64,000 nucleotides of DNA from Mesonia profundi (GTDB taxonomy: Bacteria > Bacteroidota > Bacteroidia > Flavobacteriales > Flavobacteriaceae): contig NZ_JAVHUL010000001.1 in NCBI RefSeq assembly GCF_031085155.1, forward strand, positions 62,001 through 126,000. Reading direction: 5' to 3'. A program made the position numbers and the translations under genes. The notes beneath the pieces were generated by a model. It searched no databases and was not told the DNA's origin. It saw only the letters and a program-made list of their open reading frames with translations. Of the stretch, positions 38,632 to 58,533 are shown piece by piece (the stretch's first letter is position 1; each line of letters begins with the position of its first letter).

Positions 38632-39192
38632 TCATCTATCCCAAAAACCAATAGCATCAATTTCAATAACCGCATCAAGTGCTGCATAATTTTTGGCGCT
38701 GCTGTGTTTCCATTCCCAGGGTTTTGTAACCAATCCAGCTTTTACGGGATTGTTATGTATATAATTAACTTTTTGTTTGATAACGTGCGGACTCCATAAT
38801 TCTATAGGATGGTTGTTCTGTTGCCAAAACTGATAGTTTTTTATATTACTATTTTTTTCTCCAGCACGTTTAAACATCGATAGCATCCATTCTCGTCTAC
38901 TTTCCTTGGGATGGGCTATAATACTTTCAATCATCTTTTTTGAGGTAAAACCCTTGAAGTCTCTCAACAATCCAGAAGGATTTTCGTTATCGTCTCGGAA
39001 TATCAGATGTATATGGCTAGGCATAATGCAATACGCAAAAAGAAGCATCCCTTTGTTTTTCCGGCAATAGTCTAAACTATCTGTGATTACATTAAAATAG
39101 GCCTCTCTAGTAAAAACGTCAATCCAGTTGATAACTGCAAATGATATAAAATATGCAGCATTAGGATTGTGAAATTTATATTTCCTGCTCAT
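38632..39192 (-). CDS. REP-associated tyrosine transposase (RAYT, TnpA_REP)
   Basis: From ATG 39192 this gives 186 residues of the Y1/HUH transposase family: metal-binding HUH motif H60-I-H62 in CIMPSHIHLIFRDDNE, and catalytic Tyr144 in KVNYIHNNPVKAGLV followed by WEWKHSSAKNY. RAYTs are single-copy, domesticated relatives of IS200/IS605 that are thought to move or maintain REP palindromes. Here two GC-rich palindromes lie on each side of the gene, as expected. All motif residues are present, so it is probably functional. An upstream TTG (39213) overlaps the -7 box and is rejected as start. Confidence 0.92.
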   Translation of the reverse strand: MSRKYKFHNPNAAYFISFAVINWIDVFTREAYFNVITDSLDYCRKNKGMLLFAYCIMPSHIHLIFRDDNENPSGLLRDFKGFTSKKMIESIIAHPKESRREWMLSMFKRAGEKNSNIKNYQFWQQNNHPIELWSPHVIKQKVNYIHNNPVKAGLVTKPWEWKHSSAKNYAALDAVIEIDAIGFWDR

Positions 39193-39210
39193 AGTATTTT
39201 TGATTATGAT

Positions 39211-39218
39211 CAAAGATA
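39211..39218 (-). promoter_or_regulatory. -7 box (TATCTTTG on minus strand) for the RAYT gene
   Basis: CAAAGATA on the plus strand is TATCTTTG on the minus strand, 18 bp before the ATG at 39192. Confidence 0.5.
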
Positions 39219-41001: not shown

Positions 41002-42492
41002 TTATAAGGTATACGAAGTTCCTTCCCGACTGTCTTTAAGCTCAATATTTAAATGGGCCAACTCATCTCTAATTTGATCACTCAGTGCAAAATCTCTATT
41101 GAGGCGTGCTTTTTTTCTCAATTCGATAAGAAGCTCTACCAAGTTTTCCATGCGACTGGTGTCATCATTGGTCGTCTTGCTTTGACTGGTCATAGGAACT
41201 AAACCTAGAATATCAAACGCAAATTCGTGCATGCTTTGATGTAGTAATTCTTGATCCTCTTTGGTGATGCTTGCTTTTTCTGCAGCGATCGAATTGATTT
41301 GTTTTACCGCATCAAATAATTTGGCGATGAGAATAGGACTGTTAAAATCATCGTTCATCGCGTCATAGCATTCTTGCTTCCAAGTTTTAAAATCAAAGTT
41401 AGAACTCTTGTGAGGTTTTAACTGCGGAATAAGTGCAATAGCATCCATCAAGCGCTGGAAACCTTTTTCGGCAGCGGTTAAAGCTTCGTCAGAAAAATCT
41501 AAAATGCTGCGGTAATTGGCTTGAAGCATAAAGAAGCGAGCTACAGACGGGCTGTAAGCTTTAGAGAGCACGTCGTTGTTTCCGGTAAATAAATCTTTAG
41601 GAAGAATATTGTTTCCGGTACTCTTCGCCATTTTTTTTCCGTTAAGGGTAAGCATATTCGCGTGCATCCAATAATTTACAGGATCTTTTCCGCTGGCTGC
41701 TTTTCCTTGCGCGATTTCACATTCGTGGTGCGGGAATTTTAAATCCATTCCGCCGCCGTGAATATCAAATTCTTCACCCAAATATTTGGTACTCATTACG
41801 GTACATTCTAAATGCCAACCAGGAAAACCAACGCTCCACGGGGAAGGCCAGCGCATAATGTGCTGGGGTTCGGCTTTTTTCCAAAGGGCAAAATCCTGCG
41901 GATTCTTTTTATCGGTTTGTGCCGCTAGTTCTCGGGTATTGGCAATCATATCCTCTAGCTTTCTTCCGCTAAGGATACCGTATTGATTAGATTCGTTATA
42001 TTTTATCACGTCAAAATAAACAGAACCATTAGCTTCATAAGCCAAGCCTTTGTCTATAATGTCTTTAATGATTTCAATTTGCTCCACAATATGACCCGTA
42101 GCTGTCGGCTCAATACTAGGAGGGATGTTGTTAAATTTTTGTAGGGTGTTATGAAAGTCGACTGTATATTTTTGAACCACTTCCATAGGTTCAATTTTTT
42201 CTAAACGCGCTTTCTTGGCGATACGATCTTCTCCAGTTTCGGCATCATCTTCTAAGTGACCTGCATCGGTAATATTTCTTACATAGCGCACTTTATAGCC
42301 CAAATGCTTTAAATACCTAAACACGAGGTCGAAAGAAATAAAAGTTCTACAGTTTCCTAAGTGTACTTTATTGTATACGGTAGGGCCGCAAACATACATG
42401 CCTACGTAGCCTTCGGTAATCGATTGAAACACTTCTTTCTCGCCTTTAAGAGAATTGTAAATCTTTAATTCTTGATCTTGGTATAAAGCCAT
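41002..42492 (-). CDS. cysS: Cysteinyl-tRNA synthetase
   Basis: This 496-residue class I synthetase has the zinc-binding Cys in [16 protein letters not shown] (HIGH motif as HLGN), a second zinc site in [10 protein letters not shown] with HHECEIAQ, and the KMSKS-type loop [10 protein letters not shown]. The C-terminal DALR region includes [14 protein letters not shown] and [20 protein letters not shown]. It charges tRNA-Cys. Complete and typical. Confidence 0.97.
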
Positions 42493-42742: not shown

Positions 42743-43420
42743 TTAAAAATCGGTATCCATATTGATATAATCTAGAAACTCTCTTTTGGTCGCTGCTTCT
42801 TTAAACTGACCTCCAAATTCACTTGTAACCGTGCTACTTTCAATATCGCGAATTCCTCTACTGTTTACGCAAAGGTGTTTGGCATCAATCACACATGCCA
42901 CGTCTTTAGTTCCTAATACGGCTTGTAATTCTTGTACAATTTGCATGGTTAAGCGCTCCTGTACTTGTGGTCGCTTAGCAAAATAATCAACAATCCGATT
43001 CATTTTAGAGAGACCAACAACGGTTCCGTTAGAGATATAAGCGACGTGAGCTCTTCCTACAATTGGTAGTAAGTGATGCTCGCACGTAGAATAAACCGTG
43101 ATGTTTTTCTCTACGAGCATTTCGCCGTACTTGTAGTTATTATCAAATACAGACGCTTTTGGTTTGCGTTGTGGGTGCAAACCAGAGAAAATTTCTTGTA
43201 CAAACATTTTGGCCACCCGCTTAGGGGTCCCTTTAAGACTGTCATCGGTAAGGTCCATTCCTAGGGTTTCTAGAATATGGTTCACATCTTTTTCAATGAG
43301 ATCCATCTTCTCCTCGTCAGACATATCAAAAGCATTCTCTCTAACAGGGTTCTCTGTACTCGATGCAATATGGTTGTCACCAAATTCTTCTATAGTATCC
43401 AATATCTTATCTATTTTCAT
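42743..43420 (-). CDS. folE: GTP cyclohydrolase I
   Basis: This 225-residue FolE has the signature FSGLHPQRKPKASVF, the zinc ligands in STCEHHLLPIVGRAHVAYI (Cys, His) and the second Cys in DAKHLCVNSRGI, plus LSKMNRIVDYFAKRPQVQERLT. It converts GTP to 7,8-dihydroneopterin triphosphate for folate and, with QueE downstream, queuosine. The N-terminal ~40 residues are a family-variable extension. It has its own -7 box. Confidence 0.96.
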   Translation of the reverse strand: MKIDKILDTIEEFGDNHIASSTENPVRENAFDMSDEEKMDLIEKDVNHILETLGMDLTDDSLKGTPKRVAKMFVQEIFSGLHPQRKPKASVFDNNYKYGEMLVEKNITVYSTCEHHLLPIVGRAHVAYISNGTVVGLSKMNRIVDYFAKRPQVQERLTMQIVQELQAVLGTKDVACVIDAKHLCVNSRGIRDIESSTVTSEFGGQFKEAATKREFLDYINMDTDF

Positions 43421-43705: not shown

Positions 43706-46700
43706 ATGAAAGCAAAACTACTACTGCTATCTGTCCTTTTTAGTCTCTCTTCTTATGAAACATTTGCTCAGAATGTGATTAGTGGAACGGATACGAATGT
43801 CTCTCAATGTACGGACAATTTTTATGATAATGGAGGTCCTAATGGAGGTTATGCTGATATTGATGGAGGTGGAACAGAGATAGTTACTATATGTTCAGAT
43901 GATCCAAATTTGGTGACTCAGGTGGAGTTTACCTCTTTTATGTTAGCTGCTGGTGATGTTTTTAATGTTTATGATGGAGATTCTACTGGAGCTCCATTAA
44001 TGGGAGCTTATACAAATGGTAATAATCCAGGAACGGTTTTCGCTTCGGGGAATAACGCTTCAGGATGCTTAACCTTTGAGTTTGTGACTGATGGTGCTTT
44101 TTCACCTTTAGCAGGTTGGAAGGCTGTCATTTCTTGTAGAGAGCCTTGCGAACCTATAGATCTAGAAATAATTAATGTGACGCCCGGAGAATTAGTAGGA
44201 GATACTTATAATATAGGACAAGGTCAGGTGATTACTTTTGAAGGGGAGGCTGATTTTTTAGGTGCAGATCCTACGGGAGCCACGTATGAGTGGGGTTTTG
44301 ATAATGGCCAATCAGGTACTGGTGCAACAGCAACTACCACGTATAATAACACAGGGGTTTATGATGTGGTTTTAACGCTTACTACCGCAGATGGTTGTAT
44401 GACTACGGTTACGCAGCAGGTAGAGGTCTTTTCTAATTTTATTGATGTAGATGATACCTATACAGATAGTGAACTGGTAGATTTACTTATTAGTGGGACC
44501 TGTGCCAATTATTCTAATATATCCTCAGTAACCAATACTTCCAATAAACAATATGGTTATTTTACAGCGCAATATTCAGATTTTCCTTTCCAAGACGGAA
44601 TTGTGATTAGTACGGGTTTTGCCGCTAATGCAGAAGGACCAAATGCCTTTCTTAATCTTGATAGCACCGGTACAGGAAGTGATCCAGATCTAGATGCAGA
44701 GTTGAATACAGGTAACTCCTTAAATGATAGAGCTTATATCCAATTCGACTTTGTTCCTTATGTAAGTGAAATCAATTTTAATTTTATTTTTGCATCAGAA
44801 GAATATAGAGGTACTTTCGCTTGTACGTATTCAGATTCGTTTGCCTTTTTATTAACTGATTCTGCCGGAAATACCACCAATTTAGCGGTGCTTCCAAATA
44901 CAACAACTCCTATTACGGTGCCAAATGTACATCCAGCAAATAATCAATGTGGTGCAGTTAACGAACAATACTTTGGTCAATTTAATGGACAAACAGATTC
45001 TGCTATCGGATTTGAAGGACAAACTGTTGCTTTAACGGCTACAGGAACTGTAAACCCTGGGGAAACCTATACGATTAAATTAGTAGTGGCAGATGAAAGA
45101 GATACGAGCCACGATAGTGCTGTGTTTTTAGAGGCAGGAAGTTTTGAGCTTGGGGCTAATCTAGGAACCGATGTGGTTTTAGATAATGAGGAGTTGGAGA
45201 TTCCTGTGCCTTGTGAAGGGGATGTAATCCTTATAGATCCTTTTCAAAATGTAGACCTTGTGCCAGGAGCTACTTTTACTTGGTTTTTTAATGGCGAGGT
45301 GATTCCTGGAGAAACCGGAGAAACTTTAGAGGTAACGGAAGAAGGTACGTATGGAATAGAAGTTTTCTTTACGGAAGATTGTACGGGAGAAGATGAGATT
45401 TTTGTAGAATTTTTAATCACTCCAGATCCCTTAGAGTTTAACCCGGTTGATATAATCGAATGTAATCCAGGGCAACCATCGCTCGATGTTAATTTAACTC
45501 AAAATGATTCAGAAGTCTTGGGGAATCAAGATCCAGCAGGTTTTATAATTACGTATCATAATTCACAGCAGGAAGCGGAAGATGGAGTAAATCCTATCAT
45601 AGATCCAGCACAATACAATGTGGCAGCTGGAGCTCCAGAAGTTGTTTTTGTGAGGATTGAAGGAACAGAAAGTAACGATGATTCTGTGTGTTATCAAGTA
45701 GGTTCTTTTGAAGTTTCTTTAGAAGGAATAAGCATCGGTCAGAATATGGAAGACCTAGAAGAATGTGATGATGATAATGATGGAGATGCTATTTTTGACT
45801 TAACGGAAAATGAAGTCTTAGCATTGGATGGCCTAGATGCGAATAATTACACCGTAACATATTACGAGACTCAAAATGCGGCAGATTTAGGTACCCCAGC
45901 AATTCCAGCGCCAACGGCATATGAGAATGTAAATAACAATCCACAAGAGATATTTGTGAGAGTTCAAGATGATAATGATGAAGACTGTAATGATACAGGA
46001 TCGTTTTTTATTGAAAGTTTTGCGGTAGGGGAAGTGAACCCCGTGGAAGATATGGAAGCTTGCAGTCTTTCAACACCCATAGAATTTAATTTAACGACCA
46101 ACACGCCTTTAGTGTTGGGATCTCAAGACCCTGCAGATTTTGCAGTGACTTATTTTGCTACACAAGCAGAGGCTAATGCGGGTACGCCTGCCATTGCAGA
46201 TCCTGCCAATTACAGTCCGATAAATGGAGAAGGTCAAACCATCTACATACGCATAGAAAATGTAAACAACACAACGTGTTATAACCTCACGAATTTTAAT
46301 TTAATCGTGAATGAAGTACGTATAGGCGCTGTAACGGACAAAGAAGAATGTGACGGCGGAAATACAGGTTTAGCTACGTTTGATTTAACCGATAGCGATA
46401 TGGAAGCTTTGGATGGTCAAAGTCCTTTAGACTACGAGGTAACGTATTACGAGACACAAGCCGCGGCCGATGCAGGCACCCCAGCTATTGCAGACCCAAC
46501 GAACTATGAAAATGTTATCTCTAATCCACAACCCATTTATGTACGAGTAAATGTAGATGGAGATGCCGACTGTTACTTAACGGAAAGCTTTATGATTGAA
46601 GCGACGGCTTCTGCGCCAATTAATGCTCCTACACCATTGGTGGCTTGTGATACCGACAATGATGGATTCTATAACCAGTTTATTCTTACCGATAAAGATG

Positions 46701-49700
46701 ATCAGATTACGGGTGGCAATCCAGCCGTAACGGTAAGCTACCACTTAACCCAAAGTGATGCCGATAACGGAGTGAGCGCAGTTAACTCCCCATATGCCAA
46801 TGTGGAACCTTATAACCAAACGATTTATGTACGCGTAGAAGATACTGTTAACGGATGTGTTTTACAAGAAACCTTAGAACTAGAAGTTTACGACAGTCCT
46901 CAAATTGTAGCACCAGAGCCATTGGAGATGTGTGATGATGATCTAGACGAACAAGCTATTTTTGATTTAACGCAAGTAGAAGAAGAAGTATTAGACGGTT
47001 TAGATCCCAATAGTTATGACATCACCTACCACGAAGATGAGCAAGAAGCCGAAGACGGTGTAAACCCTATAGGGAATGCAGGATCTTATGAAAATGCATC
47101 CAATCCTCAAACGATTTGGATTCGTGTAACCGATCCTAATACCCCAACAGGCTGTTATAATGTAGTCGAATTAGAATTAATAGTCAATCCCTTGCCGGTA
47201 GCGGTACAACCTACCAACTTAGAGTTGTGTGATGATGAGTTAAGCGGAAGTGATACCGATGAACTTAGTGTGTTTGACCTTACGGTAAAAGACGGAGAAA
47301 TTACAGCAGGAGATAACTCTATTGAAGTGATTTGGTATGAAACCCCAGCCGATCTTCAAGCAGGAATTCAAATCCCAAATCCAACGGAATACACCAATAT
47401 CATTAGCACCAACCAAACTGTTGTAGCTTTATTGGTAGATGAAAACGGATGTAGTGTAACGATCACCCTTACCCTAGTAGTGAACCCTTTACCTTCACCA
47501 ACCCCTACAGATCAATTAGAGCCTTACGAATTATGTGATGACGATAACGATGGCTTTGTAGAATTTGACTTAGATACTCAAGAAGATATCATCGCCAATG
47601 GAGAAGCCGATGTAGAAATCACTTACTATGCTACCCCAGAAGGTGCAGAAAGTGGCTTGGTTGAAAACCAAATAGGACCTCTATACGAAAACGTACAGAT
47701 CAATCAACAAACCATTTACGCTAGAGCAACCAATATCATTACCGGTTGTTACCGTTGGGTAAGTTTAGACTTAGTGGTGACTCCACTTCCAGAGATTGAA
47801 GGCCCTTTAGAGGATATCTTTGCATGTGATGCCACAGGCGATACCTTCCAGAACTTTGATATTACTCAAAATGAAGAAGTTATTTATGGTACACAAGACA
47901 CGAGTTTGTACACCATCTCTTATTATGAAAGTGAAACCAATGCCATAGATGAAGTAAACCCTATTAGTACGCCAACCAACTATTCTAATGGCGGGATAAG
48001 CCCTTTAACCATTTGGGTACGCTTAGAAGATAACGATACCGAATGTTTCCGTATCGCTAGTTTTGATTTAATTACAGGAGAAACCCCAGAGGTGTTTAAC
48101 CCGCAACCTTTAGAAGCTTGTGATGATAGTGCTACCACGCCAACCGATGAGATAGGCTTGTTTGATTTAACCCAAACAATCCCAGAAATCACTAATGAAG
48201 TAAGCAACCTAGAGGTGTTTTTCTACGAAAGTGTAACCGATATGGATAATGATAATTTCATTACTCCAGCCGATGCTTACCAGAATATTGACAATCCGCA
48301 AACGCTTCAAGTAAAAGTGGTAAGCGATGAAGGCTGTGAAGCATTTACGACCCTTACCCTAGTGGTAAACCCTAATCCTAGTATAGAAGAAGAATTAGAT
48401 CCTATAGAAGTATGTGATATTGATAATGATGGTTTTGCTGACTTTGATTTAGAAGCCGAGACTGTAGGAATCTTAAACGGAGAGCCTAATGTAAGCATCA
48501 CCTACCATACGACTTTGGCCAATGCAGAGAATGGCGTAGATGCGATTGATACCACAGAGCTTTACACCAACGTAAATATCAATATACAAACCATTTACGT
48601 AAGAGCAGAAAACACAGGAGTTACAGGAAATGGAACCAACTGTTATGTGACCCGTCCATTAGAGCTTATCGTGATTCCTTCTCCCGTATTGGAGCCAGAA
48701 GGATTAGAAGACTTATATGTATGTGATGACGCTAGTGCCAATGGTTTTGCTGTCTTTGATTTAACGCAAAACGAAGACTTGATGTTTGGAGACCAAGACC
48801 CTACGAACCTTGTGATTACGTATCACGAAGATTTGGCAGCGGCAGAAAACGGTACGCCACGAATTCTAGTCCCTACAATCTATACCAATATTGAAAACCC
48901 TCAAATGATTTGGGTGCGTATAGAAAATACCGAAACCGGTTGTATAGACGTTTTTGTATTAACTGATGAAAACACCTTTATGTTATATGTAGAGGAGATT
49001 CCAGAATTGACTCAGCCTACGCCGCTTCAGATGTGTGATGACGATTATGAAAATGATCCTTTATCTCAAGTAGAGTTTGATTTAACGGTAAAAGAGAGCG
49101 AGATTTTAGATATGGATCCGGTGCCCGATAACTATGTGTTTACCTATTATGCTTCCGCAGAAGATCAAGCTTCAGGAACACCAATAGATACTCCAGAAGC
49201 TTATGTAAACGCAGAAAATCCGCAAACGATATTTATAGAAGTAGCCGATACCAATACAGAGAACTCTTGTATCAACGAGATTACGCTCACCATCGAAGTA
49301 TTGCCATTGCCTACACCTTCCGAAGAAAGTTTGGAAGCCCTGCGTCAAGAACAATGTGATGAGGACAATGATGGAGTAGCAGCAGATCCTTTTGACTTAA
49401 CCCAGAGTGGCGATTTAATCTCTGACGGAGAAAATGTAGTGATTAGTTACTATAAGACCGAAGACGCAGCCAATGAAGAAGATGCAACAGAGCTGATAGG
49501 CACTCCGGAAGCTTATGTAAACGAGCCAGCCTACAATACGCTGAATGCTGACGGAACCCCAACCAATATCCAACTAATTTATGCCCGCGTAGATAGTGGA
49601 GCCGCAGGAAACTTCTGTTATGTGTTGGTTCCTTTTGAACTGATTGTTTACCCAGAACCGGTACTTAACCCCGCAGGGACTCCGTTTGGATACACCCTAT

Positions 49701-51127
49701 GTGAAGATGGCAGTAGTGGAACAGCAGCTATAGAACTTTCAGACATTGCAGGAAACCTTTATGATGCAACTTTTGAAGCCGATGCAGATCCAGATACGCA
49801 AGCAGACCCAACGGTTTTAATTCCATTATTGGATCAAGACCCAGCGACCAATGCGAATCAAGATTTAGACATCAACAACTATATTTTCACCTATTACTTT
49901 AGTTTAGCCGATGCCGAGGCAGGCGCTAATGTTATTCCAAACGGTTTTGCGATCAGTGATGATACCACCATCTGGGTAGAGATAAGCAATAGCTTTGGCT
50001 GTGTTAGTGATGAGTTTGGAGAAATTTTAGTGCAAGTAGAGCCGCGTCCAAGTATAGACGATACGCCCTTGGTGATTGATGATTTATGTTCAGACGAGCA
50101 AGGCGGAAACACCGCAACGATAGATCTAACGCAGTATAGCGATCAGATCAATCCGGGAGCACCGGCCGATACGCAAATCAACTACTATGCAAGTATGCAG
50201 GATTACCTAGATGGTTTAGTGATCGAGACGCCTTCAGATTATACAACAGAAAGCAATCCGCAAACGATTATTGCTGAAGTGATTTATACCACCAGTTTAT
50301 GTGAATCCGCAACGGTAAAAGAAATCACGCTAGAGGTAAATGAAACCCCAACGGTAGACATTACTTCGTATGATGGAACGGTGATTTGTTATGATAGCAA
50401 TCCAGCCACCGAGGTGATAGGCGGAAACTACGATCCAGTGATTATTGATACCGGATTAAACGAGCTTACCTACGATTTTGTATGGACGATAGACGGCGTA
50501 GATCAAAACAATAACAGCGCAAGCTTTGAGGTAACCGAGCCCGGACTTGTAGTGGTAGAAGTAACCAATACCACGACTCCAGGAATGTGTAGCACCAGCA
50601 GTGAGGCTTTATTCTTTGAGAATAACCCACCAGAATTTCAGGCTACAATAGAGACGATATCTTTTAATGGATCCCATTCTGTATTGATTAGCAATGTAAC
50701 CGGAAATGGAGACTATGAATTTAGTGTAGACAACGGTCCTTGGACGGCGCTAGGCGAAGATGGTACTTTAACCATAGACGGTTTAGCAGGCGGAGAACAC
50801 GAGATTATAGGAAGAGATCAAGGCGGCTGTGGAGCTACTCTACAAACCATCTCGTTCATTGATTATCCAGAGTTCTTTACCCCTAATGAAGATGGGTATA
50901 ACGACCGTTGGAACATCCTAGGACTCTCCAATCAATTAGATGCTAAGATTTATATCTTTGACCGTTACGGAAAACTACTCAAACAACTAAGTCCAAACGG
51001 CGAAGGCTGGGATGGAACCTTTAATGGAACCGCAATGCCATCTAACGACTATTGGTTTAGAGTAGAATACACCGATATTGATGGTACCAGAAAAGAGTTT
51101 AAAGCCAACTTTACTTTAAAGAGGTAA
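43706..51127 (+). CDS. Giant type IX-secreted surface protein A (CUB - PKD - choice-of-anchor L - 16 repeat units - CTD)
   Basis: This 2473-residue protein begins with a signal peptide (~1-22, ends ETFAQ). Domains in order: a CUB-like domain (~23-145); a PKD-like domain (~150-240, YEWGFDNGQSG, NNTGVYDVVLTL); a choice-of-anchor L domain (~250-487, FPFQDGIVISTGFA, FIFASEEYRG); an Ig-like segment (~500-575); about 16 units of 80-125 residues (~578-2210), each usually opening with a Cys-Asp-rich loop (CDTDNDG, CDDDNDG) and FDLT and closing with a Cys; further Ig-like sequence; and a gliding-motility C-terminal domain (FFTPNEDGYNDRWNI, YIFDRYGKLLKQL), i.e. a type B T9SS sorting signal. It is probably an adhesin or extracellular matrix/filament protein. 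From residue ~781 it is identical to protein B. Confidence 0.92.
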   Translation: MKAKLLLLSVLFSLSSYETFAQNVISGTDTNVSQCTDNFYDNGGPNGGYADIDGGGTEIVTICSDDPNLVTQVEFTSFMLAAGDVFNVYDGDSTGAPLMGAYTNGNNPGTVFASGNNASGCLTFEFVTDGAFSPLAGWKAVISCREPCEPIDLEIINVTPGELVGDTYNIGQGQVITFEGEADFLGADPTGATYEWGFDNGQSGTGATATTTYNNTGVYDVVLTLTTADGCMTTVTQQVEVFSNFIDVDDTYTDSELVDLLISGTCANYSNISSVTNTSNKQYGYFTAQYSDFPFQDGIVISTGFAANAEGPNAFLNLDSTGTGSDPDLDAELNTGNSLNDRAYIQFDFVPYVSEINFNFIFASEEYRGTFACTYSDSFAFLLTDSAGNTTNLAVLPNTTTPITVPNVHPANNQCGAVNEQYFGQFNGQTDSAIGFEGQTVALTATGTVNPGETYTIKLVVADERDTSHDSAVFLEAGSFELGANLGTDVVLDNEELEIPVPCEGDVILIDPFQNVDLVPGATFTWFFNGEVIPGETGETLEVTEEGTYGIEVFFTEDCTGEDEIFVEFLITPDPLEFNPVDIIECNPGQPSLDVNLTQNDSEVLGNQDPAGFIITYHNSQQEAEDGVNPIIDPAQYNVAAGAPEVVFVRIEGTESNDDSVCYQVGSFEVSLEGISIGQNMEDLEECDDDNDGDAIFDLTENEVLALDGLDANNYTVTYYETQNAADLGTPAIPAPTAYENVNNNPQEIFVRVQDDNDEDCNDTGSFFIESFAVGEVNPVEDMEACSLSTPIEFNLTTNTPLVLGSQDPADFAVTYFATQAEANAGTPAIADPANYSPINGEGQTIYIRIENVNNTTCYNLTNFNLIVNEVRIGAVTDKEECDGGNTGLATFDLTDSDMEALDGQSPLDYEVTYYETQAAADAGTPAIADPTNYENVISNPQPIYVRVNVDGDADCYLTESFMIEATASAPINAPTPLVACDTDNDGFYNQFILTDKDDQITGGNPAVTVSYHLTQSDADNGVSAVNSPYANVEPYNQTIYVRVEDTVNGCVLQETLELEVYDSPQIVAPEPLEMCDDDLDEQAIFDLTQVEEEVLDGLDPNSYDITYHEDEQEAEDGVNPIGNAGSYENASNPQTIWIRVTDPNTPTGCYNVVELELIVNPLPVAVQPTNLELCDDELSGSDTDELSVFDLTVKDGEITAGDNSIEVIWYETPADLQAGIQIPNPTEYTNIISTNQTVVALLVDENGCSVTITLTLVVNPLPSPTPTDQLEPYELCDDDNDGFVEFDLDTQEDIIANGEADVEITYYATPEGAESGLVENQIGPLYENVQINQQTIYARATNIITGCYRWVSLDLVVTPLPEIEGPLEDIFACDATGDTFQNFDITQNEEVIYGTQDTSLYTISYYESETNAIDEVNPISTPTNYSNGGISPLTIWVRLEDNDTECFRIASFDLITGETPEVFNPQPLEACDDSATTPTDEIGLFDLTQTIPEITNEVSNLEVFFYESVTDMDNDNFITPADAYQNIDNPQTLQVKVVSDEGCEAFTTLTLVVNPNPSIEEELDPIEVCDIDNDGFADFDLEAETVGILNGEPNVSITYHTTLANAENGVDAIDTTELYTNVNINIQTIYVRAENTGVTGNGTNCYVTRPLELIVIPSPVLEPEGLEDLYVCDDASANGFAVFDLTQNEDLMFGDQDPTNLVITYHEDLAAAENGTPRILVPTIYTNIENPQMIWVRIENTETGCIDVFVLTDENTFMLYVEEIPELTQPTPLQMCDDDYENDPLSQVEFDLTVKESEILDMDPVPDNYVFTYYASAEDQASGTPIDTPEAYVNAENPQTIFIEVADTNTENSCINEITLTIEVLPLPTPSEESLEALRQEQCDEDNDGVAADPFDLTQSGDLISDGENVVISYYKTEDAANEEDATELIGTPEAYVNEPAYNTLNADGTPTNIQLIYARVDSGAAGNFCYVLVPFELIVYPEPVLNPAGTPFGYTLCEDGSSGTAAIELSDIAGNLYDATFEADADPDTQADPTVLIPLLDQDPATNANQDLDINNYIFTYYFSLADAEAGANVIPNGFAISDDTTIWVEISNSFGCVSDEFGEILVQVEPRPSIDDTPLVIDDLCSDEQGGNTATIDLTQYSDQINPGAPADTQINYYASMQDYLDGLVIETPSDYTTESNPQTIIAEVIYTTSLCESATVKEITLEVNETPTVDITSYDGTVICYDSNPATEVIGGNYDPVIIDTGLNELTYDFVWTIDGVDQNNNSASFEVTEPGLVVVEVTNTTTPGMCSTSSEALFFENNPPEFQATIETISFNGSHSVLISNVTGNGDYEFSVDNGPWTALGEDGTLTIDGLAGGEHEIIGRDQGGCGATLQTISFIDYPEFFTPNEDGYNDRWNILGLSNQLDAKIYIFDRYGKLLKQLSPNGEGWDGTFNGTAMPSNDYWFRVEYTDIDGTRKEFKANFTLKR

Positions 51128-51200
51128 AGAGCTAAAAGCTTAACTACATAGACCGCCGTCTTTCAACTATTTGTGGAGAGACGGCGGTCTTTTTGGTGGG
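46045..51200 (+). repeat. Long direct repeat, copy 1 (5,156 bp)
   Basis: From GGAAGATATGGAAGCTTGCA at 46045 to the TTGGTGGG after the terminator, the sequence recurs at 53378-58533 at a constant offset of 7,333 bp with no indels. The only differences I found are four synonymous changes within 19 bp (46111, 46121, 46122, 46129). Upstream and downstream of these borders the similarity ends abruptly. Confidence 0.93.
51150..51195 (+). terminator. Strong terminator after giant gene A
   Basis: AGACCGCCGTCT and AGACGGCGGTCT form a perfect 12-bp GC-rich stem with a 17-nt loop and T5. It is part of the direct repeat, so each giant gene carries an identical terminator. Confidence 0.9.
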
Positions 51201-51407
51201 TGAAAAGAGAGAAGCTTGTAGAGATTCAAAAGAAAGTATAATTTTTTTCTCGTTTAGGGGTAGGAAATATACTTTGTAAGTTGTTTTATGGATAGAAATT
51301 AGATTTATTTTTTTAAAATTTAGCATAAGGCTAACATTTGACTCTATTTTTATTAAATTTCGCGGCTAAAGCGGTTAAAGAGACAAATAATTATTACCCC
51401 AATACTT

Positions 51408-54400
51408 ATGAAGAATATATACTTACTACTGTTTGCTTTGCTTCCCATTTCATTGTTTTCACAAAATGTGATCATGGGAGATGCAGATGTAGATCAATGC
51501 TCGGGAATTTTTTATGACAATGGAGGACCTGGAGGTTATAATGATAATGAAGGAGTCCCTCAAGTAATTACCATTTGTCCAGATCAACTCGGTCAAGTGA
51601 CAGAACTAGATTTTACTGAATTTTTATTGGGAGGAGACGATGAAGTAAATATTTATGATGGGGATTCTACGGGAGCTCCATTAATAGGGACTTATTTAAA
51701 TGGTAATAATCCAGGACTTGTATTTGCTTCTTCCATAAATACATCACGTTGTTTAACCGTAGAGTTTGTGCCAGATGGAAACTTTTCGCCATTAGCGGGT
51801 TGGGAAGCTACCATAAGTTGTAGAGAAGAGTGTCAGGATATAGATGTTTCTGTCTCTAATGTTACGCCATCAACCCTAAACGGAACTGTTTTTGAAGTAC
51901 CTTTCAGTACTGAAATCACTTTCGAAAGTGATGTCATTTTTGAAGATGATGGAACTAACGCTCAATATGAATGGGATTTTGGAGATGGTAATACCGCAAC
52001 GGGAGAAACGAGTCAAAATATATATACTCAATTAGGAGTTTATGAGGTAGTGCTAACGGTCACAGATAATAATGATTGTGTTTATTCCACAAGCATACAA
52101 GTAGAAGTCATACTAGATGTAAATGATCCAGGTCCAGGTTGTCCAAATGTTAATGTAAACCCGGCAGACAATATAGAAATTGAAGAGGATGGTAATTATA
52201 CAATAACCTGTGGGGAAACCTCTACCGTATTGTCTGCAGAGTATCTAGTTACAGGGGAGTCCACTTCTTATGCCGTGAGCGACATACCCTATGCCCCTCC
52301 CTTTCCATTTACAGGAGCCACAGGGAATGCTCAAGATATAGGTAGTGATGACGGTTGGTCTTCAATCATAGACCTTGGTTTTGATTTTTGTTTTTTTAAT
52401 AATACCTATGATAATGTGCTAATTACAGATAATGGCGCGTTAACCTTTGATATTCAGGGTGTTGTTCCGGGAGGAAATTATTCACCTAGTTCAGGTAGTG
52501 GATATTCGTTTGATGAACAGATTCCTTTTGATCCTGGAGCTTATGGTCCTCCTTATGTAAATGCAATTTTTGGTGTTTTACAGGATTTACACCCAGGTAG
52601 TTCGGAAACACCAGATGATTTTTCAATCAACTATGAATTGATAGGATCAGCTCCTTGTAGAACCTTAGTTTTTAATATTTATAATGCAGCTCTTTATAGT
52701 TGTGGTGGTTCTGAAGGTTTTCAAACGAGTCAAATGGTTCTTTATGAAACCACCAATGTAATTGATGTCTATGTAAAGAATAGAACTTCGTGTACTACTT
52801 TCAATTCTGGATCTGGATTAATTGGAATTCAAAATCAAGATGGTACAGAAGCTTTTACGCCTCCAGGGAGAAATACAGGTACTTGGAGCGCTACAGAAGA
52901 GGCTTGGAGGTTCACTCCTAATGGTACCTCAAATGTTGACTTTGCTTGGTATGATGAAGGGGGGAATTTTATAAGTAATGATGCTGATTTGGAAGTTAGT
53001 CCAACTGAACCAACCACATATACAGCCGAAGTTGAATATACGAATTGCAATGGAGATATCGTTACAGATTCTAAAGAAGTGACTGTACAGTTAGATGAAC
53101 CTTATATAGTAGATCTAGGTCAAGATATAAGTGAATGTGATGTAGATGCTCCTATAACTTTAGAAGTGAGTTTAACTTCCTCAGAATATGAGCTTACAGA
53201 CCTCAATTATGAATGGTTTTTTGAGGGTGTTAGTATTCCTGGAGAAGTTTCTCCTACTTTAGAGGTTTCTGAAACCGGTGAATATACAGTAGAAACATCT
53301 GTAGATGGAACAAACTGTACTTCTTCTGATAGTATAAATGTTACTTTTTATGATACTCCTGAAATAGAAAGTTCTCCGGAAGATATGGAAGCTTGCAGTC
53401 TTTCAACACCCATAGAATTTAATTTAACGACCAACACGCCTTTGGTGTTGGGAAGTCAAGATCCTGCAGATTTTGCAGTGACTTATTTTGCTACACAAGC
53501 AGAGGCTAATGCGGGTACGCCTGCCATTGCAGATCCTGCCAATTACAGTCCGATAAATGGAGAAGGTCAAACCATCTACATACGCATAGAAAATGTAAAC
53601 AACACAACGTGTTATAACCTCACGAATTTTAATTTAATCGTGAATGAAGTACGTATAGGCGCTGTAACGGACAAAGAAGAATGTGACGGCGGAAATACAG
53701 GTTTAGCTACGTTTGATTTAACCGATAGCGATATGGAAGCTTTGGATGGTCAAAGTCCTTTAGACTACGAGGTAACGTATTACGAGACACAAGCCGCGGC
53801 CGATGCAGGCACCCCAGCTATTGCAGACCCAACGAACTATGAAAATGTTATCTCTAATCCACAACCCATTTATGTACGAGTAAATGTAGATGGAGATGCC
53901 GACTGTTACTTAACGGAAAGCTTTATGATTGAAGCGACGGCTTCTGCGCCAATTAATGCTCCTACACCATTGGTGGCTTGTGATACCGACAATGATGGAT
54001 TCTATAACCAGTTTATTCTTACCGATAAAGATGATCAGATTACGGGTGGCAATCCAGCCGTAACGGTAAGCTACCACTTAACCCAAAGTGATGCCGATAA
54101 CGGAGTGAGCGCAGTTAACTCCCCATATGCCAATGTGGAACCTTATAACCAAACGATTTATGTACGCGTAGAAGATACTGTTAACGGATGTGTTTTACAA
54201 GAAACCTTAGAACTAGAAGTTTACGACAGTCCTCAAATTGTAGCACCAGAGCCATTGGAGATGTGTGATGATGATCTAGACGAACAAGCTATTTTTGATT
54301 TAACGCAAGTAGAAGAAGAAGTATTAGACGGTTTAGATCCCAATAGTTATGACATCACCTACCACGAAGATGAGCAAGAAGCCGAAGACGGTGTAAACCC

Positions 54401-57400
54401 TATAGGGAATGCAGGATCTTATGAAAATGCATCCAATCCTCAAACGATTTGGATTCGTGTAACCGATCCTAATACCCCAACAGGCTGTTATAATGTAGTC
54501 GAATTAGAATTAATAGTCAATCCCTTGCCGGTAGCGGTACAACCTACCAACTTAGAGTTGTGTGATGATGAGTTAAGCGGAAGTGATACCGATGAACTTA
54601 GTGTGTTTGACCTTACGGTAAAAGACGGAGAAATTACAGCAGGAGATAACTCTATTGAAGTGATTTGGTATGAAACCCCAGCCGATCTTCAAGCAGGAAT
54701 TCAAATCCCAAATCCAACGGAATACACCAATATCATTAGCACCAACCAAACTGTTGTAGCTTTATTGGTAGATGAAAACGGATGTAGTGTAACGATCACC
54801 CTTACCCTAGTAGTGAACCCTTTACCTTCACCAACCCCTACAGATCAATTAGAGCCTTACGAATTATGTGATGACGATAACGATGGCTTTGTAGAATTTG
54901 ACTTAGATACTCAAGAAGATATCATCGCCAATGGAGAAGCCGATGTAGAAATCACTTACTATGCTACCCCAGAAGGTGCAGAAAGTGGCTTGGTTGAAAA
55001 CCAAATAGGACCTCTATACGAAAACGTACAGATCAATCAACAAACCATTTACGCTAGAGCAACCAATATCATTACCGGTTGTTACCGTTGGGTAAGTTTA
55101 GACTTAGTGGTGACTCCACTTCCAGAGATTGAAGGCCCTTTAGAGGATATCTTTGCATGTGATGCCACAGGCGATACCTTCCAGAACTTTGATATTACTC
55201 AAAATGAAGAAGTTATTTATGGTACACAAGACACGAGTTTGTACACCATCTCTTATTATGAAAGTGAAACCAATGCCATAGATGAAGTAAACCCTATTAG
55301 TACGCCAACCAACTATTCTAATGGCGGGATAAGCCCTTTAACCATTTGGGTACGCTTAGAAGATAACGATACCGAATGTTTCCGTATCGCTAGTTTTGAT
55401 TTAATTACAGGAGAAACCCCAGAGGTGTTTAACCCGCAACCTTTAGAAGCTTGTGATGATAGTGCTACCACGCCAACCGATGAGATAGGCTTGTTTGATT
55501 TAACCCAAACAATCCCAGAAATCACTAATGAAGTAAGCAACCTAGAGGTGTTTTTCTACGAAAGTGTAACCGATATGGATAATGATAATTTCATTACTCC
55601 AGCCGATGCTTACCAGAATATTGACAATCCGCAAACGCTTCAAGTAAAAGTGGTAAGCGATGAAGGCTGTGAAGCATTTACGACCCTTACCCTAGTGGTA
55701 AACCCTAATCCTAGTATAGAAGAAGAATTAGATCCTATAGAAGTATGTGATATTGATAATGATGGTTTTGCTGACTTTGATTTAGAAGCCGAGACTGTAG
55801 GAATCTTAAACGGAGAGCCTAATGTAAGCATCACCTACCATACGACTTTGGCCAATGCAGAGAATGGCGTAGATGCGATTGATACCACAGAGCTTTACAC
55901 CAACGTAAATATCAATATACAAACCATTTACGTAAGAGCAGAAAACACAGGAGTTACAGGAAATGGAACCAACTGTTATGTGACCCGTCCATTAGAGCTT
56001 ATCGTGATTCCTTCTCCCGTATTGGAGCCAGAAGGATTAGAAGACTTATATGTATGTGATGACGCTAGTGCCAATGGTTTTGCTGTCTTTGATTTAACGC
56101 AAAACGAAGACTTGATGTTTGGAGACCAAGACCCTACGAACCTTGTGATTACGTATCACGAAGATTTGGCAGCGGCAGAAAACGGTACGCCACGAATTCT
56201 AGTCCCTACAATCTATACCAATATTGAAAACCCTCAAATGATTTGGGTGCGTATAGAAAATACCGAAACCGGTTGTATAGACGTTTTTGTATTAACTGAT
56301 GAAAACACCTTTATGTTATATGTAGAGGAGATTCCAGAATTGACTCAGCCTACGCCGCTTCAGATGTGTGATGACGATTATGAAAATGATCCTTTATCTC
56401 AAGTAGAGTTTGATTTAACGGTAAAAGAGAGCGAGATTTTAGATATGGATCCGGTGCCCGATAACTATGTGTTTACCTATTATGCTTCCGCAGAAGATCA
56501 AGCTTCAGGAACACCAATAGATACTCCAGAAGCTTATGTAAACGCAGAAAATCCGCAAACGATATTTATAGAAGTAGCCGATACCAATACAGAGAACTCT
56601 TGTATCAACGAGATTACGCTCACCATCGAAGTATTGCCATTGCCTACACCTTCCGAAGAAAGTTTGGAAGCCCTGCGTCAAGAACAATGTGATGAGGACA
56701 ATGATGGAGTAGCAGCAGATCCTTTTGACTTAACCCAGAGTGGCGATTTAATCTCTGACGGAGAAAATGTAGTGATTAGTTACTATAAGACCGAAGACGC
56801 AGCCAATGAAGAAGATGCAACAGAGCTGATAGGCACTCCGGAAGCTTATGTAAACGAGCCAGCCTACAATACGCTGAATGCTGACGGAACCCCAACCAAT
56901 ATCCAACTAATTTATGCCCGCGTAGATAGTGGAGCCGCAGGAAACTTCTGTTATGTGTTGGTTCCTTTTGAACTGATTGTTTACCCAGAACCGGTACTTA
57001 ACCCCGCAGGGACTCCGTTTGGATACACCCTATGTGAAGATGGCAGTAGTGGAACAGCAGCTATAGAACTTTCAGACATTGCAGGAAACCTTTATGATGC
57101 AACTTTTGAAGCCGATGCAGATCCAGATACGCAAGCAGACCCAACGGTTTTAATTCCATTATTGGATCAAGACCCAGCGACCAATGCGAATCAAGATTTA
57201 GACATCAACAACTATATTTTCACCTATTACTTTAGTTTAGCCGATGCCGAGGCAGGCGCTAATGTTATTCCAAACGGTTTTGCGATCAGTGATGATACCA
57301 CCATCTGGGTAGAGATAAGCAATAGCTTTGGCTGTGTTAGTGATGAGTTTGGAGAAATTTTAGTGCAAGTAGAGCCGCGTCCAAGTATAGACGATACGCC

Positions 57401-58460
57401 CTTGGTGATTGATGATTTATGTTCAGACGAGCAAGGCGGAAACACCGCAACGATAGATCTAACGCAGTATAGCGATCAGATCAATCCGGGAGCACCGGCC
57501 GATACGCAAATCAACTACTATGCAAGTATGCAGGATTACCTAGATGGTTTAGTGATCGAGACGCCTTCAGATTATACAACAGAAAGCAATCCGCAAACGA
57601 TTATTGCTGAAGTGATTTATACCACCAGTTTATGTGAATCCGCAACGGTAAAAGAAATCACGCTAGAGGTAAATGAAACCCCAACGGTAGACATTACTTC
57701 GTATGATGGAACGGTGATTTGTTATGATAGCAATCCAGCCACCGAGGTGATAGGCGGAAACTACGATCCAGTGATTATTGATACCGGATTAAACGAGCTT
57801 ACCTACGATTTTGTATGGACGATAGACGGCGTAGATCAAAACAATAACAGCGCAAGCTTTGAGGTAACCGAGCCCGGACTTGTAGTGGTAGAAGTAACCA
57901 ATACCACGACTCCAGGAATGTGTAGCACCAGCAGTGAGGCTTTATTCTTTGAGAATAACCCACCAGAATTTCAGGCTACAATAGAGACGATATCTTTTAA
58001 TGGATCCCATTCTGTATTGATTAGCAATGTAACCGGAAATGGAGACTATGAATTTAGTGTAGACAACGGTCCTTGGACGGCGCTAGGCGAAGATGGTACT
58101 TTAACCATAGACGGTTTAGCAGGCGGAGAACACGAGATTATAGGAAGAGATCAAGGCGGCTGTGGAGCTACTCTACAAACCATCTCGTTCATTGATTATC
58201 CAGAGTTCTTTACCCCTAATGAAGATGGGTATAACGACCGTTGGAACATCCTAGGACTCTCCAATCAATTAGATGCTAAGATTTATATCTTTGACCGTTA
58301 CGGAAAACTACTCAAACAACTAAGTCCAAACGGCGAAGGCTGGGATGGAACCTTTAATGGAACCGCAATGCCATCTAACGACTATTGGTTTAGAGTAGAA
58401 TACACCGATATTGATGGTACCAGAAAAGAGTTTAAAGCCAACTTTACTTTAAAGAGGTAA
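51408..58460 (+). CDS. Giant type IX-secreted surface protein B (CUB - PKD - different tip domain - 14 shared repeat units - CTD)
   Basis: This 2350-residue paralogue has a signal peptide (MKNIYLLLFALLPISLFS), a CUB-like domain (~19-140, FYDNGGPGGYND, YDGDSTGAPLIG) and a PKD domain (~145-232, YEWDFGDGNTATGE). A distinct tip follows (~245-520) with WSSIIDLGFDFCFFNNTYDN, ITDNGALTFDIQG and PPYVNAIFGVLQDLHPG, resembling choice-of-anchor/nidogen-like extracellular domains, not the anchor-L domain of protein A. Ig-like sequence (~525-650) leads to residue ~658, after which it is identical to protein A: 14 Cys-bracketed units, Ig-like region and the type B T9SS sorting domain. It starts 281 bp after gene A and lies past its terminator, so it is a separate unit. 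Confidence 0.92.
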   Translation: MKNIYLLLFALLPISLFSQNVIMGDADVDQCSGIFYDNGGPGGYNDNEGVPQVITICPDQLGQVTELDFTEFLLGGDDEVNIYDGDSTGAPLIGTYLNGNNPGLVFASSINTSRCLTVEFVPDGNFSPLAGWEATISCREECQDIDVSVSNVTPSTLNGTVFEVPFSTEITFESDVIFEDDGTNAQYEWDFGDGNTATGETSQNIYTQLGVYEVVLTVTDNNDCVYSTSIQVEVILDVNDPGPGCPNVNVNPADNIEIEEDGNYTITCGETSTVLSAEYLVTGESTSYAVSDIPYAPPFPFTGATGNAQDIGSDDGWSSIIDLGFDFCFFNNTYDNVLITDNGALTFDIQGVVPGGNYSPSSGSGYSFDEQIPFDPGAYGPPYVNAIFGVLQDLHPGSSETPDDFSINYELIGSAPCRTLVFNIYNAALYSCGGSEGFQTSQMVLYETTNVIDVYVKNRTSCTTFNSGSGLIGIQNQDGTEAFTPPGRNTGTWSATEEAWRFTPNGTSNVDFAWYDEGGNFISNDADLEVSPTEPTTYTAEVEYTNCNGDIVTDSKEVTVQLDEPYIVDLGQDISECDVDAPITLEVSLTSSEYELTDLNYEWFFEGVSIPGEVSPTLEVSETGEYTVETSVDGTNCTSSDSINVTFYDTPEIESSPEDMEACSLSTPIEFNLTTNTPLVLGSQDPADFAVTYFATQAEANAGTPAIADPANYSPINGEGQTIYIRIENVNNTTCYNLTNFNLIVNEVRIGAVTDKEECDGGNTGLATFDLTDSDMEALDGQSPLDYEVTYYETQAAADAGTPAIADPTNYENVISNPQPIYVRVNVDGDADCYLTESFMIEATASAPINAPTPLVACDTDNDGFYNQFILTDKDDQITGGNPAVTVSYHLTQSDADNGVSAVNSPYANVEPYNQTIYVRVEDTVNGCVLQETLELEVYDSPQIVAPEPLEMCDDDLDEQAIFDLTQVEEEVLDGLDPNSYDITYHEDEQEAEDGVNPIGNAGSYENASNPQTIWIRVTDPNTPTGCYNVVELELIVNPLPVAVQPTNLELCDDELSGSDTDELSVFDLTVKDGEITAGDNSIEVIWYETPADLQAGIQIPNPTEYTNIISTNQTVVALLVDENGCSVTITLTLVVNPLPSPTPTDQLEPYELCDDDNDGFVEFDLDTQEDIIANGEADVEITYYATPEGAESGLVENQIGPLYENVQINQQTIYARATNIITGCYRWVSLDLVVTPLPEIEGPLEDIFACDATGDTFQNFDITQNEEVIYGTQDTSLYTISYYESETNAIDEVNPISTPTNYSNGGISPLTIWVRLEDNDTECFRIASFDLITGETPEVFNPQPLEACDDSATTPTDEIGLFDLTQTIPEITNEVSNLEVFFYESVTDMDNDNFITPADAYQNIDNPQTLQVKVVSDEGCEAFTTLTLVVNPNPSIEEELDPIEVCDIDNDGFADFDLEAETVGILNGEPNVSITYHTTLANAENGVDAIDTTELYTNVNINIQTIYVRAENTGVTGNGTNCYVTRPLELIVIPSPVLEPEGLEDLYVCDDASANGFAVFDLTQNEDLMFGDQDPTNLVITYHEDLAAAENGTPRILVPTIYTNIENPQMIWVRIENTETGCIDVFVLTDENTFMLYVEEIPELTQPTPLQMCDDDYENDPLSQVEFDLTVKESEILDMDPVPDNYVFTYYASAEDQASGTPIDTPEAYVNAENPQTIFIEVADTNTENSCINEITLTIEVLPLPTPSEESLEALRQEQCDEDNDGVAADPFDLTQSGDLISDGENVVISYYKTEDAANEEDATELIGTPEAYVNEPAYNTLNADGTPTNIQLIYARVDSGAAGNFCYVLVPFELIVYPEPVLNPAGTPFGYTLCEDGSSGTAAIELSDIAGNLYDATFEADADPDTQADPTVLIPLLDQDPATNANQDLDINNYIFTYYFSLADAEAGANVIPNGFAISDDTTIWVEISNSFGCVSDEFGEILVQVEPRPSIDDTPLVIDDLCSDEQGGNTATIDLTQYSDQINPGAPADTQINYYASMQDYLDGLVIETPSDYTTESNPQTIIAEVIYTTSLCESATVKEITLEVNETPTVDITSYDGTVICYDSNPATEVIGGNYDPVIIDTGLNELTYDFVWTIDGVDQNNNSASFEVTEPGLVVVEVTNTTTPGMCSTSSEALFFENNPPEFQATIETISFNGSHSVLISNVTGNGDYEFSVDNGPWTALGEDGTLTIDGLAGGEHEIIGRDQGGCGATLQTISFIDYPEFFTPNEDGYNDRWNILGLSNQLDAKIYIFDRYGKLLKQLSPNGEGWDGTFNGTAMPSNDYWFRVEYTDIDGTRKEFKANFTLKR

Positions 58461-58533
58461 AGAGCTAAAAGCTTAACTACATAGACCGCCGTCTTTCAAC
58501 TATTTGTGGAGAGACGGCGGTCTTTTTGGTGGG
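53378..58533 (+). repeat. Long direct repeat, copy 2 (5,156 bp)
   Basis: This is the second copy of 46045-51200. The synonymous differences fall at 53444, 53454, 53455 and 53462 (Leu TTA/TTG, Ser TCT/AGT, Asp GAC/GAT). The copy covers the shared stalk, the C-terminal domain, the stop codon and the terminator of giant gene B. Confidence 0.93.
58483..58528 (+). terminator. Strong terminator after giant gene B
   Basis: This is identical to the hairpin at 51150-51195, carried by the long direct repeat. Confidence 0.9.

Follow-up and report, generated by a model that had tools for sequence, protein, structure and literature searches.

Near-identical stalks beneath divergent tips in giant type IX-secreted surface proteins of Mesonia profundi and other Flavobacteriaceae: probable concerted evolution

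Two giant surface-protein genes with one stalk

Two adjacent genes, here called A and B, lie in a 64,000-nucleotide stretch of DNA from Mesonia profundi (the window; RefSeq assembly GCF_031085155.1, contig NZ_JAVHUL010000001.1, positions 62,001 to 126,000) and encode giant predicted cargo proteins of the type IX secretion system (T9SS) that carry different N-terminal tips on the same stalk. We consider it probable, at roughly 85%, that A and B are two old and different tips on one stalk and sorting-domain segment, kept near-identical by interlocus gene conversion, a form of concerted evolution. We directly observed the shared tract, its recurrence across genera, the clustering of stalks by genome and the recurrence of tip types between genera, and these are best explained by interlocus gene conversion, the simplest process that would equalise dispersed and inverted copies while sparing tips and flanks. 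The features of the two genes are as follows (positions in the window).

43706..51127, forward strand: gene A, predicted T9SS type B surface protein of 2,473 amino acids (open reading frame; PKD_4, CHU_C, NF038133 at 1.7e-43, TIGR04131 at 2.1e-35)
43706..46044, forward strand: tip A, unique sequence; type also in G132_3, G212_1 and G115_2 of other genera
44492..45145, forward strand: choice-of-anchor L domain of tip A, amino acids 263-480 (NF038133)
46045..51200, forward strand: homogenised tract, copy 1, with stalk, sorting domain, stop codon and terminator (4 mismatches in 5,156 bp)
50858..51124, forward strand: type B sorting domain of A, amino acids 2385-2473 (TIGR04131)
51151..51195, forward strand: terminator of copy 1, hairpin and T-run, inside the tract
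51408..58460, forward strand: gene B, predicted T9SS type B surface protein of 2,350 amino acids, other tip, same stalk (open reading frame; PKD_4 at 8.7e-14, TIGR04131 at 1.4e-35)
51408..53377, forward strand: tip B, unique sequence; type also in G132_1, G268_1, G212_3 and UlvMAG_1
53378..58533, forward strand: homogenised tract, copy 2 (offset comparison)
58191..58457, forward strand: type B sorting domain of B, amino acids 2262-2350, identical to that of A (TIGR04131)
58484..58528, forward strand: the same terminator, copy 2 (offset 7,333)

A sequence-only reading of the window had described a 5.16-kb near-perfect direct repeat with four synonymous substitutions, covering about 1,690 codons, the stop codon and the terminator, and a position-by-position comparison bears this out. 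The segments 46045-51200 and 53378-58533 correspond over 5,156 bp at an offset of 7,333 bp, with no indels and 4 mismatches, all of them silent. The mismatches (46111, 46121, 46122 and 46129) all lie inside the first 85 bp, those at 46121 and 46122 jointly making a two-step change between the serine codons TCT and AGT, and the remaining 5,071 bp (46130-51200) are exact between the copies, a run that was reached in 0 of 5,000 random placements of four differences. The border between the diversifying tip and the homogenised stalk is sharp. A 601-bp stalk probe found just two near-identical copies in the whole genome, both on contig C1. Outside the tract, identity at the same offset is 16-39% per 100 bp; the tract starts at the tip/stalk junction (codon 780 of A, codon 657 of B) and ends 73 nucleotides beyond each stop codon, just after the hairpin terminator (z -5.0).

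Gene A consists of an N-terminal module, which by reading looks CUB-like and has no model match, followed by PKD, choice-of-anchor L, a stalk of repeats of about 95 amino acids, and the type B sorting domain. The TIGR04131 scores (120.7 bits for A and 121.3 bits for B, with a cut-off of 35) support the assignment of both proteins as T9SS type B cargo, in agreement with the earlier proposal of a type IX-secreted surface protein, and by eye both N-termini resemble signal peptides. The stalk repeats have no match among Pfam or NCBIfam models up to E 0.1.

In the process that we propose, homologous recombination, probably of the RecA type, would transfer stalk sequence between genes with this segment, whether in tandem or dispersed, over a length that begins where tip and stalk meet and stops shortly after the stop codon. 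The tips, being too different to recombine, would go on diverging. The pattern could persist because the stalks are long and identical and would thus continue to recombine, and because a single PorP/SprF shuttle, if it carries all copies, would favour one sorting-domain sequence.

Recurrence in single-contig genomes of the family

To find similar genes elsewhere, we compared the stalk of one relative (G212) with 396 genomes of the family Flavobacteriaceae, scoring at most two hits per genome; 93 genomes matched at E 1e-80, a cut-off that the window's own genome fails, as this query is distant from it. Twenty of the 93 are single-contig genomes, and all 14 of these with two listed hits were compared. 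Stalk DNA of 3.5-5.4 kb is common to the two hits at 91-100% identity in 13 of the 14 (G055, G082, G092, G132, G171, G185, G212, G268, G307, G315, G349, G355, which is Kordia algicida, and G406). With G101, where two stalk hits from separate searches have 4,112 bp in common at 95.5%, near-identical stalks are found in 14 of 15 single-contig genomes with at least two stalk hits, and these 14 represent 13 genus codes. Their tips reach at most 62% amino acid identity in the best local alignment or do not match at all (the comparison covered the genomes other than G101). The copies may be far apart: in G268, 5,420 bp are exact and inverted between copies about 735 kb from each other. In Altibacter lentus (G115, about ten contigs) the stalks are common at 98.1%.

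The loci themselves also recur across genera. The neighbours of gene A that serve as synteny anchors are as follows.

42743..43420, reverse strand: folE (TIGR00063/NF006824), adjoining an A-type gene in G002, G003, G005, G006, G008, G013 and G014
41002..42492, reverse strand: cysS (TIGR00435), an anchor also in other genera (G132, G092, G212, G115)

In the Mesonia genomes examined, one of these genes stands at the folE/cysS/lgt locus; in G132, G092 (two genes), G212 (two genes) and G115 they are found at the cysS locus. At a second locus, beside nifU and with PorP/SprF downstream, one or two such genes are found in G132, G212, G115 and G268. A mobile element is disfavoured as the origin of the copies, which stand at loci that recur across genera (folE/cysS/lgt, and nifU with SprF).

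These genomes bear on whether the repeat in the window is an assembly artefact, in which one stalk was collapsed and then used twice. We regard this as extremely improbable, although several features would fit it: the window genome is a draft of 76 contigs, the four differences are all within 85 bp of unique sequence, and contigs of relatives break inside the gene. However, single-contig genomes show the same pattern, some of them with true differences inside the tract, which rules out an artefact as the whole story; a single contig is not proof of long reads, and K. algicida is a scaffold. The window has two unique sequences leading into the stalk and two leading out of it, so that two copies are needed. 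In W. marincola, a stand-alone stalk contig has a depth of 785x, compared with 223x for NODE_9. The misassembly worry raised earlier is therefore answered for the phenomenon, but not for every base of the window: given the 76-contig draft and the closeness of all four differences to unique sequence, a short-read assembler could merge small interior differences, and the exact interior identity may be overstated if the draft was built from short reads.

Two further observations concern the relatives. One of the two stalk genes of G101, at L179:5381-11181, falls into separate frames of 871 and 1,074 codons, as a result of either a broken gene or a sequencing error. In a metagenome-assembled genome (MAG) of Ulvibacter, a giant gene adjoining the genes with the common stalk (L123:17749-25297) contains within it a tandem array of units of about 540 bp that are 91-99% identical.

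Stalk sharing within Mesonia

We searched 16 Mesonia genomes, including that of the window, and scored matches between fetched stretches of at least 80 bp at 88% identity or higher. Gene B was matched in all 16, and shared stalk DNA was found in 10, again counting the window. The shared DNA amounts to 5,336 bp, exact, on four contig ends in M. mobilis (G005), 4,496 bp, exact, on two contigs in M. phycicola (G007), 1.2-2.9 kb at 88-97% in G003, G008 and G014, and just 100-370 bp, mostly at contig ends, in G001, G002, M. oceanica (G006) and G010. In G009, G011, G012 and G013 contigs end inside the gene, and these four are counted neither as sharing nor as single-copy. The gene next to folE runs off its contig in all seven congeners fetched, which we attribute to the behaviour of repeats in short-read assemblies, and in a stalk scan of the named genomes the stalk frame runs off the contig end at 45 of 75 loci. 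Common stalks offer a reason for the breaks of draft genomes inside giant adhesin genes.

In G010, the type B sorting domains at five contig ends (C15, C14, C11, C6 and C1), each about 94 amino acids long, closely resemble one another, and the listed pairs match in DNA over 227-353 bp at 88-98%, which suggests several copies of one collapsed stalk.

Tips at the folE locus were covered in 8 of the 16 genomes, the window and seven congeners, and all eight carry a choice-of-anchor L tip; frequent tip exchange at this locus is not seen among them. This bears on the earlier suggestion of a locus for phase or antigenic variation, where recombination in the stalk would switch or delete tips, which we judge quite unlikely and which our results do not support. 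Direct repeats can recombine, and a crossover between the stalks would remove 7,333 bp, with tip A as the one that is left, as had been pointed out; we agree that this is a possible outcome, but there is no sign here that it occurred. Two described cases speak for it: in Flavobacterium psychrophilum, adhesin/PorP repeats flank an inversion of 1.9 Mb (PMC5808330), and in Helicobacter pylori, gene conversion alters the bab genes (PMC3960876). The constant tip at the folE locus speaks against such variation, though the anchor-L domain is a common one, matched at 36-44% by three further genes of the window genome. In addition, no second near-identical copy of tip A or tip B was found in the assembly (best other match 53%), and since each tip forms the 5' end of its gene and includes the start codon, exchange within the identical stalks of dispersed copies changes no protein. 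For the tandem pair, phase variation is conceivable, but our results lend it no support.

Stalks group by genome and tips group by type

To see how stalks and tips are related, we built a tree of 37 chosen stalks, in which each of the 14 multi-copy genomes forms one clade. The tree needs 13 changes of genome, the minimum, and 0 of 200 label shuffles were as low; it left out the third K. algicida gene, two further genes each of Kordia sp. and Ulvibacter, the W. marincola pair, the partial second gene of M. aquimarina, and G101. Stalks are 93-100% identical within genomes and 34-55% between genera (76% for G092/G212). The tips show a different grouping. The anchor-L type is common to Mesonia A, G132_3, G212_1 and G115_2, the B type to Mesonia B, G132_1, G268_1 and G212_3, and a third type (T2) to G268_2, G092_2 and G212_2 at 54-69%. 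The N-terminal module is a partial exception, with 51% amino acid identity between A and B and about 40% to other genera.

The contrast is clear between K. algicida and Kordia sp. 2-867, where three orthologous tip pairs have 60-84% amino acid identity, compared with 27-42% for tips within a species. Stalks within one species are 92.5-98% identical, whereas orthologous stalks between the species (78-79% of nucleotides) are no closer than non-orthologous ones (72-79%). The third K. algicida gene (L115:18110-22939), which has another stalk type, serves as a natural control: it pairs with its Kordia sp. counterpart by orthology, as expected if it evolves by descent and not by homogenisation. In the window genome, four other listed T9SS type B genes match A and B at only 36-49% and are not equalised with them.

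The repeat had been attributed to either a recent duplication or ongoing gene conversion. The second option is supported, but a plain recent duplication is insufficient, because each of the two tips corresponds to a tip type of its own in other genera and near-identical stalks recur in many genomes, also between loci hundreds of kilobases apart. If one gene had recently been duplicated in tandem, and one of the tips then replaced or changed very fast, this would account for a direct tandem repeat with a fixed offset and almost no differences, and for the N-terminal module that A and B have in common at 51%. We nevertheless think such a history very unlikely, since the tips match different types of other genera, near-identical stalks connect distant loci in many genomes, and the tract opens with the two-step TCT/AGT difference. 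Moreover, M. aquimarina (G003) has an A-type tip at the folE locus, on contig C2, and on contig C3 a tip of the B type that matches over its full length at 57%, which suggests that the two types stand at separate loci there. The tandem arrangement itself could be young in M. profundi.

Several observations weigh against concerted evolution by gene conversion. No recombination event was observed, and the comparison comprises one genome per species. When 11 rows were added, only 11 of 17 groups were single clades in the resulting 48-row tree, which needs 21 changes against a minimum of 16; outside their own clades were the two W. marincola stalks, the partial M. aquimarina gene, the front half of the broken G101 gene, and the neighbours with another stalk in both Kordia and the Ulvibacter MAG. 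Judging from these sequences, equalisation does not reach all the stalks that a genome has. Furthermore, G341 has two hits without any DNA in common, five single-contig genomes (G137, G189, G269, G318 and G402) have one hit only, and M. hippocampi (G004) and G015 have one complete gene each. The positions of the differences fit gene conversion. The longest exact run exceeded all 5,000 random placements in seven of nine pairs, with weaker statistics for G212_1/G212_3 (248/5,000) and G092 (5/5,000). The outer tenths of the tract hold more than half of the differences in 9 of 10 matched pairs, but only 49 of 149 in K. algicida, and BLAST extension into diverged flanks gathers mismatches at tract ends by construction.

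A possible shared PorP/SprF shuttle

A type B cargo gene commonly, though not universally, has its own PorP/SprF gene directly downstream. No PorP/SprF gene is found directly downstream of B, where an acyl-CoA ligase gene lies on the opposite strand. The window genome has three PorP/SprF genes, two on contig C22, one on C2 and none on C1, and the one on C2 is the orthologue of the stalk type, with 54-60% identity to those of other genera.

Contig C2, 64090-66249 (L224): stalk-type SprF alone beside nifU in the window genome

In 15 of the 16 Mesonia genomes the stalk-type SprF lies 208-288 nucleotides from nifU with no adhesin between them, and G013 has no match. We also checked the downstream flanks of the stalk loci in the 13 single-contig genomes that share stalk DNA in the G212 comparison. 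In nine of them one stalk locus, and no more than one, is followed by SprF on its own strand, directly downstream in G055, G092, G132, G212, G307 and G406 and about 1.5 kb off in G082, G185 and G349. In G268 both copies have an SprF, which is inside the identical tract. Through the inverted repeat of G268 (L171, L172) that contains this PorP/SprF gene, a large inversion like that of F. psychrophilum could arise.

From location and orthology, we infer that one SprF may serve A and B, i.e., several tips. The proposal has points against it. The examined flanks of G171, G315 and G355 have no SprF, location and orthology are all that it draws on, and a single SprF would account better for identity of the sorting domain than for identity of the whole stalk. 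In Flavobacterium johnsoniae, type B cargo is reported to require a matching SprF-like shuttle, and the orphan shuttle Fjoh_1677 to carry three orphan type B cargoes (PMC12618676). The likeness is that of one SprF-like protein, unlinked to its substrates, for several type B cargoes, and does not imply orthology to the Mesonia SprF. Unlike the genes described here, those three substrates have C-terminal domains that are more than 44% identical, not near-identical stalks, and gene conversion is not part of the account of Fjoh_1677 given there (PMC12618676).

Stalk structure

A model of three stalk repeats (18 sequences, predicted local distance difference test score, pLDDT, of 93) has the form of a string of immunoglobulin-like beads. 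Its best structural matches are fragments of GhpA, the grappling hook protein of Aureispira (Z 7.1-8.2, root-mean-square deviation 4.8-6.0; PDB 9fl*/9g8b). Titin and NCAM are nearly as high in Z (7.3-7.6), but with deviations of 8-13, and a Z near 8 is common among strings of beads. A profile of the 18 stalk sequences matched no PDB sequence at E up to 1, GhpA included, which does not exclude a relation, and the model of the middle module of the B tip is poor (pLDDT 61, five sequences).

As modelled, the stalk resembles GhpA in fold, and GhpA is likewise a T9SS-exported giant protein of immunoglobulin-like beads, described as a heptamer (PMC13319060, PMC11205867). The stalk has no match to it by profile, and the heptamer is described for GhpA. 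It is conceivable, though doubtful, that the differently tipped A and B and their counterparts bundle via their identical stalks and so form filaments with mixed tips, much as GhpA forms its heptamer, with one SprF loading all of them. If so, gene conversion would be what keeps a modular multi-tool appendage assembling.

Comparison with known systems

The closest parallel is found in H. pylori, where concerted evolution by gene conversion between loci is described for babA/babB and homA/homB (PMC3960876). There too, adhesin paralogues have a 3' segment that is alike within a strain, while the 5' and middle segments are alike between strains. The genes studied here correspond to this pattern, in that the shared segment clusters by genome and the variable segment by type, with the exceptions seen in the enlarged tree. 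The H. pylori genes belong to another phylum and protein family (BabA is about 80 kDa) and to one species, and their conversion affects expression and binding (PMC3960876). Here many genera are involved, and what the copies have in common is a secretion signal together with an extracellular stalk of 5 kb, or about 1,690 residues.

In Porphyromonas gingivalis, the T9SS cargo genes hagA, rgpA and kgp have identical segments within and between genes, and these repeats break short-read assemblies (PMC5266723). In that species the common parts are cleaved adhesin domains beside protease domains, whereas A and B have no Pfam or NCBIfam match to cleaved adhesin or DUF2436 up to E 0.1. In F. psychrophilum, of the same family as Mesonia, T9SS adhesin genes are also repeated at two places of one genome, in a 10-kb inverted repeat with an adhesin, PorP/SprF and an outer-membrane protein, which is described as the flanks of an inversion rather than as a common stalk under different tips (PMC5808330). 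In the open-access literature we found no general description of the common-stalk pattern in Flavobacteriaceae, which does not show that none is in print.

Concerted evolution of adhesin genes is on record for a single pathogen species (H. pylori, PMC3960876), and here it appears to recur among giant T9SS surface proteins of one family, differing from bab in its breadth and in the part that is shared. This suggests a route by which a cell could have several specificities with one stalk and one shuttle. Common stalks with different tips are natural tip swaps for binding tests, and whether stalk identity is selected or merely mechanical is directly testable.

Two minor observations were made in the window genome. 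A gene for a REP-associated tyrosine transposase (38632-39213, reverse strand, NF047646) lies near the adhesin locus, with no visible link to the repeat. A second tandem repeat, on contig C22 (23287-27180 and 30722-34615; L223), extends over 3,894 bp at 98.95% identity and contains the 3' end of another giant gene, PorP/SprF (TIGR03519) and a PorE-like/OmpA-like protein, the same gene layout as that of the F. psychrophilum inverted repeat.

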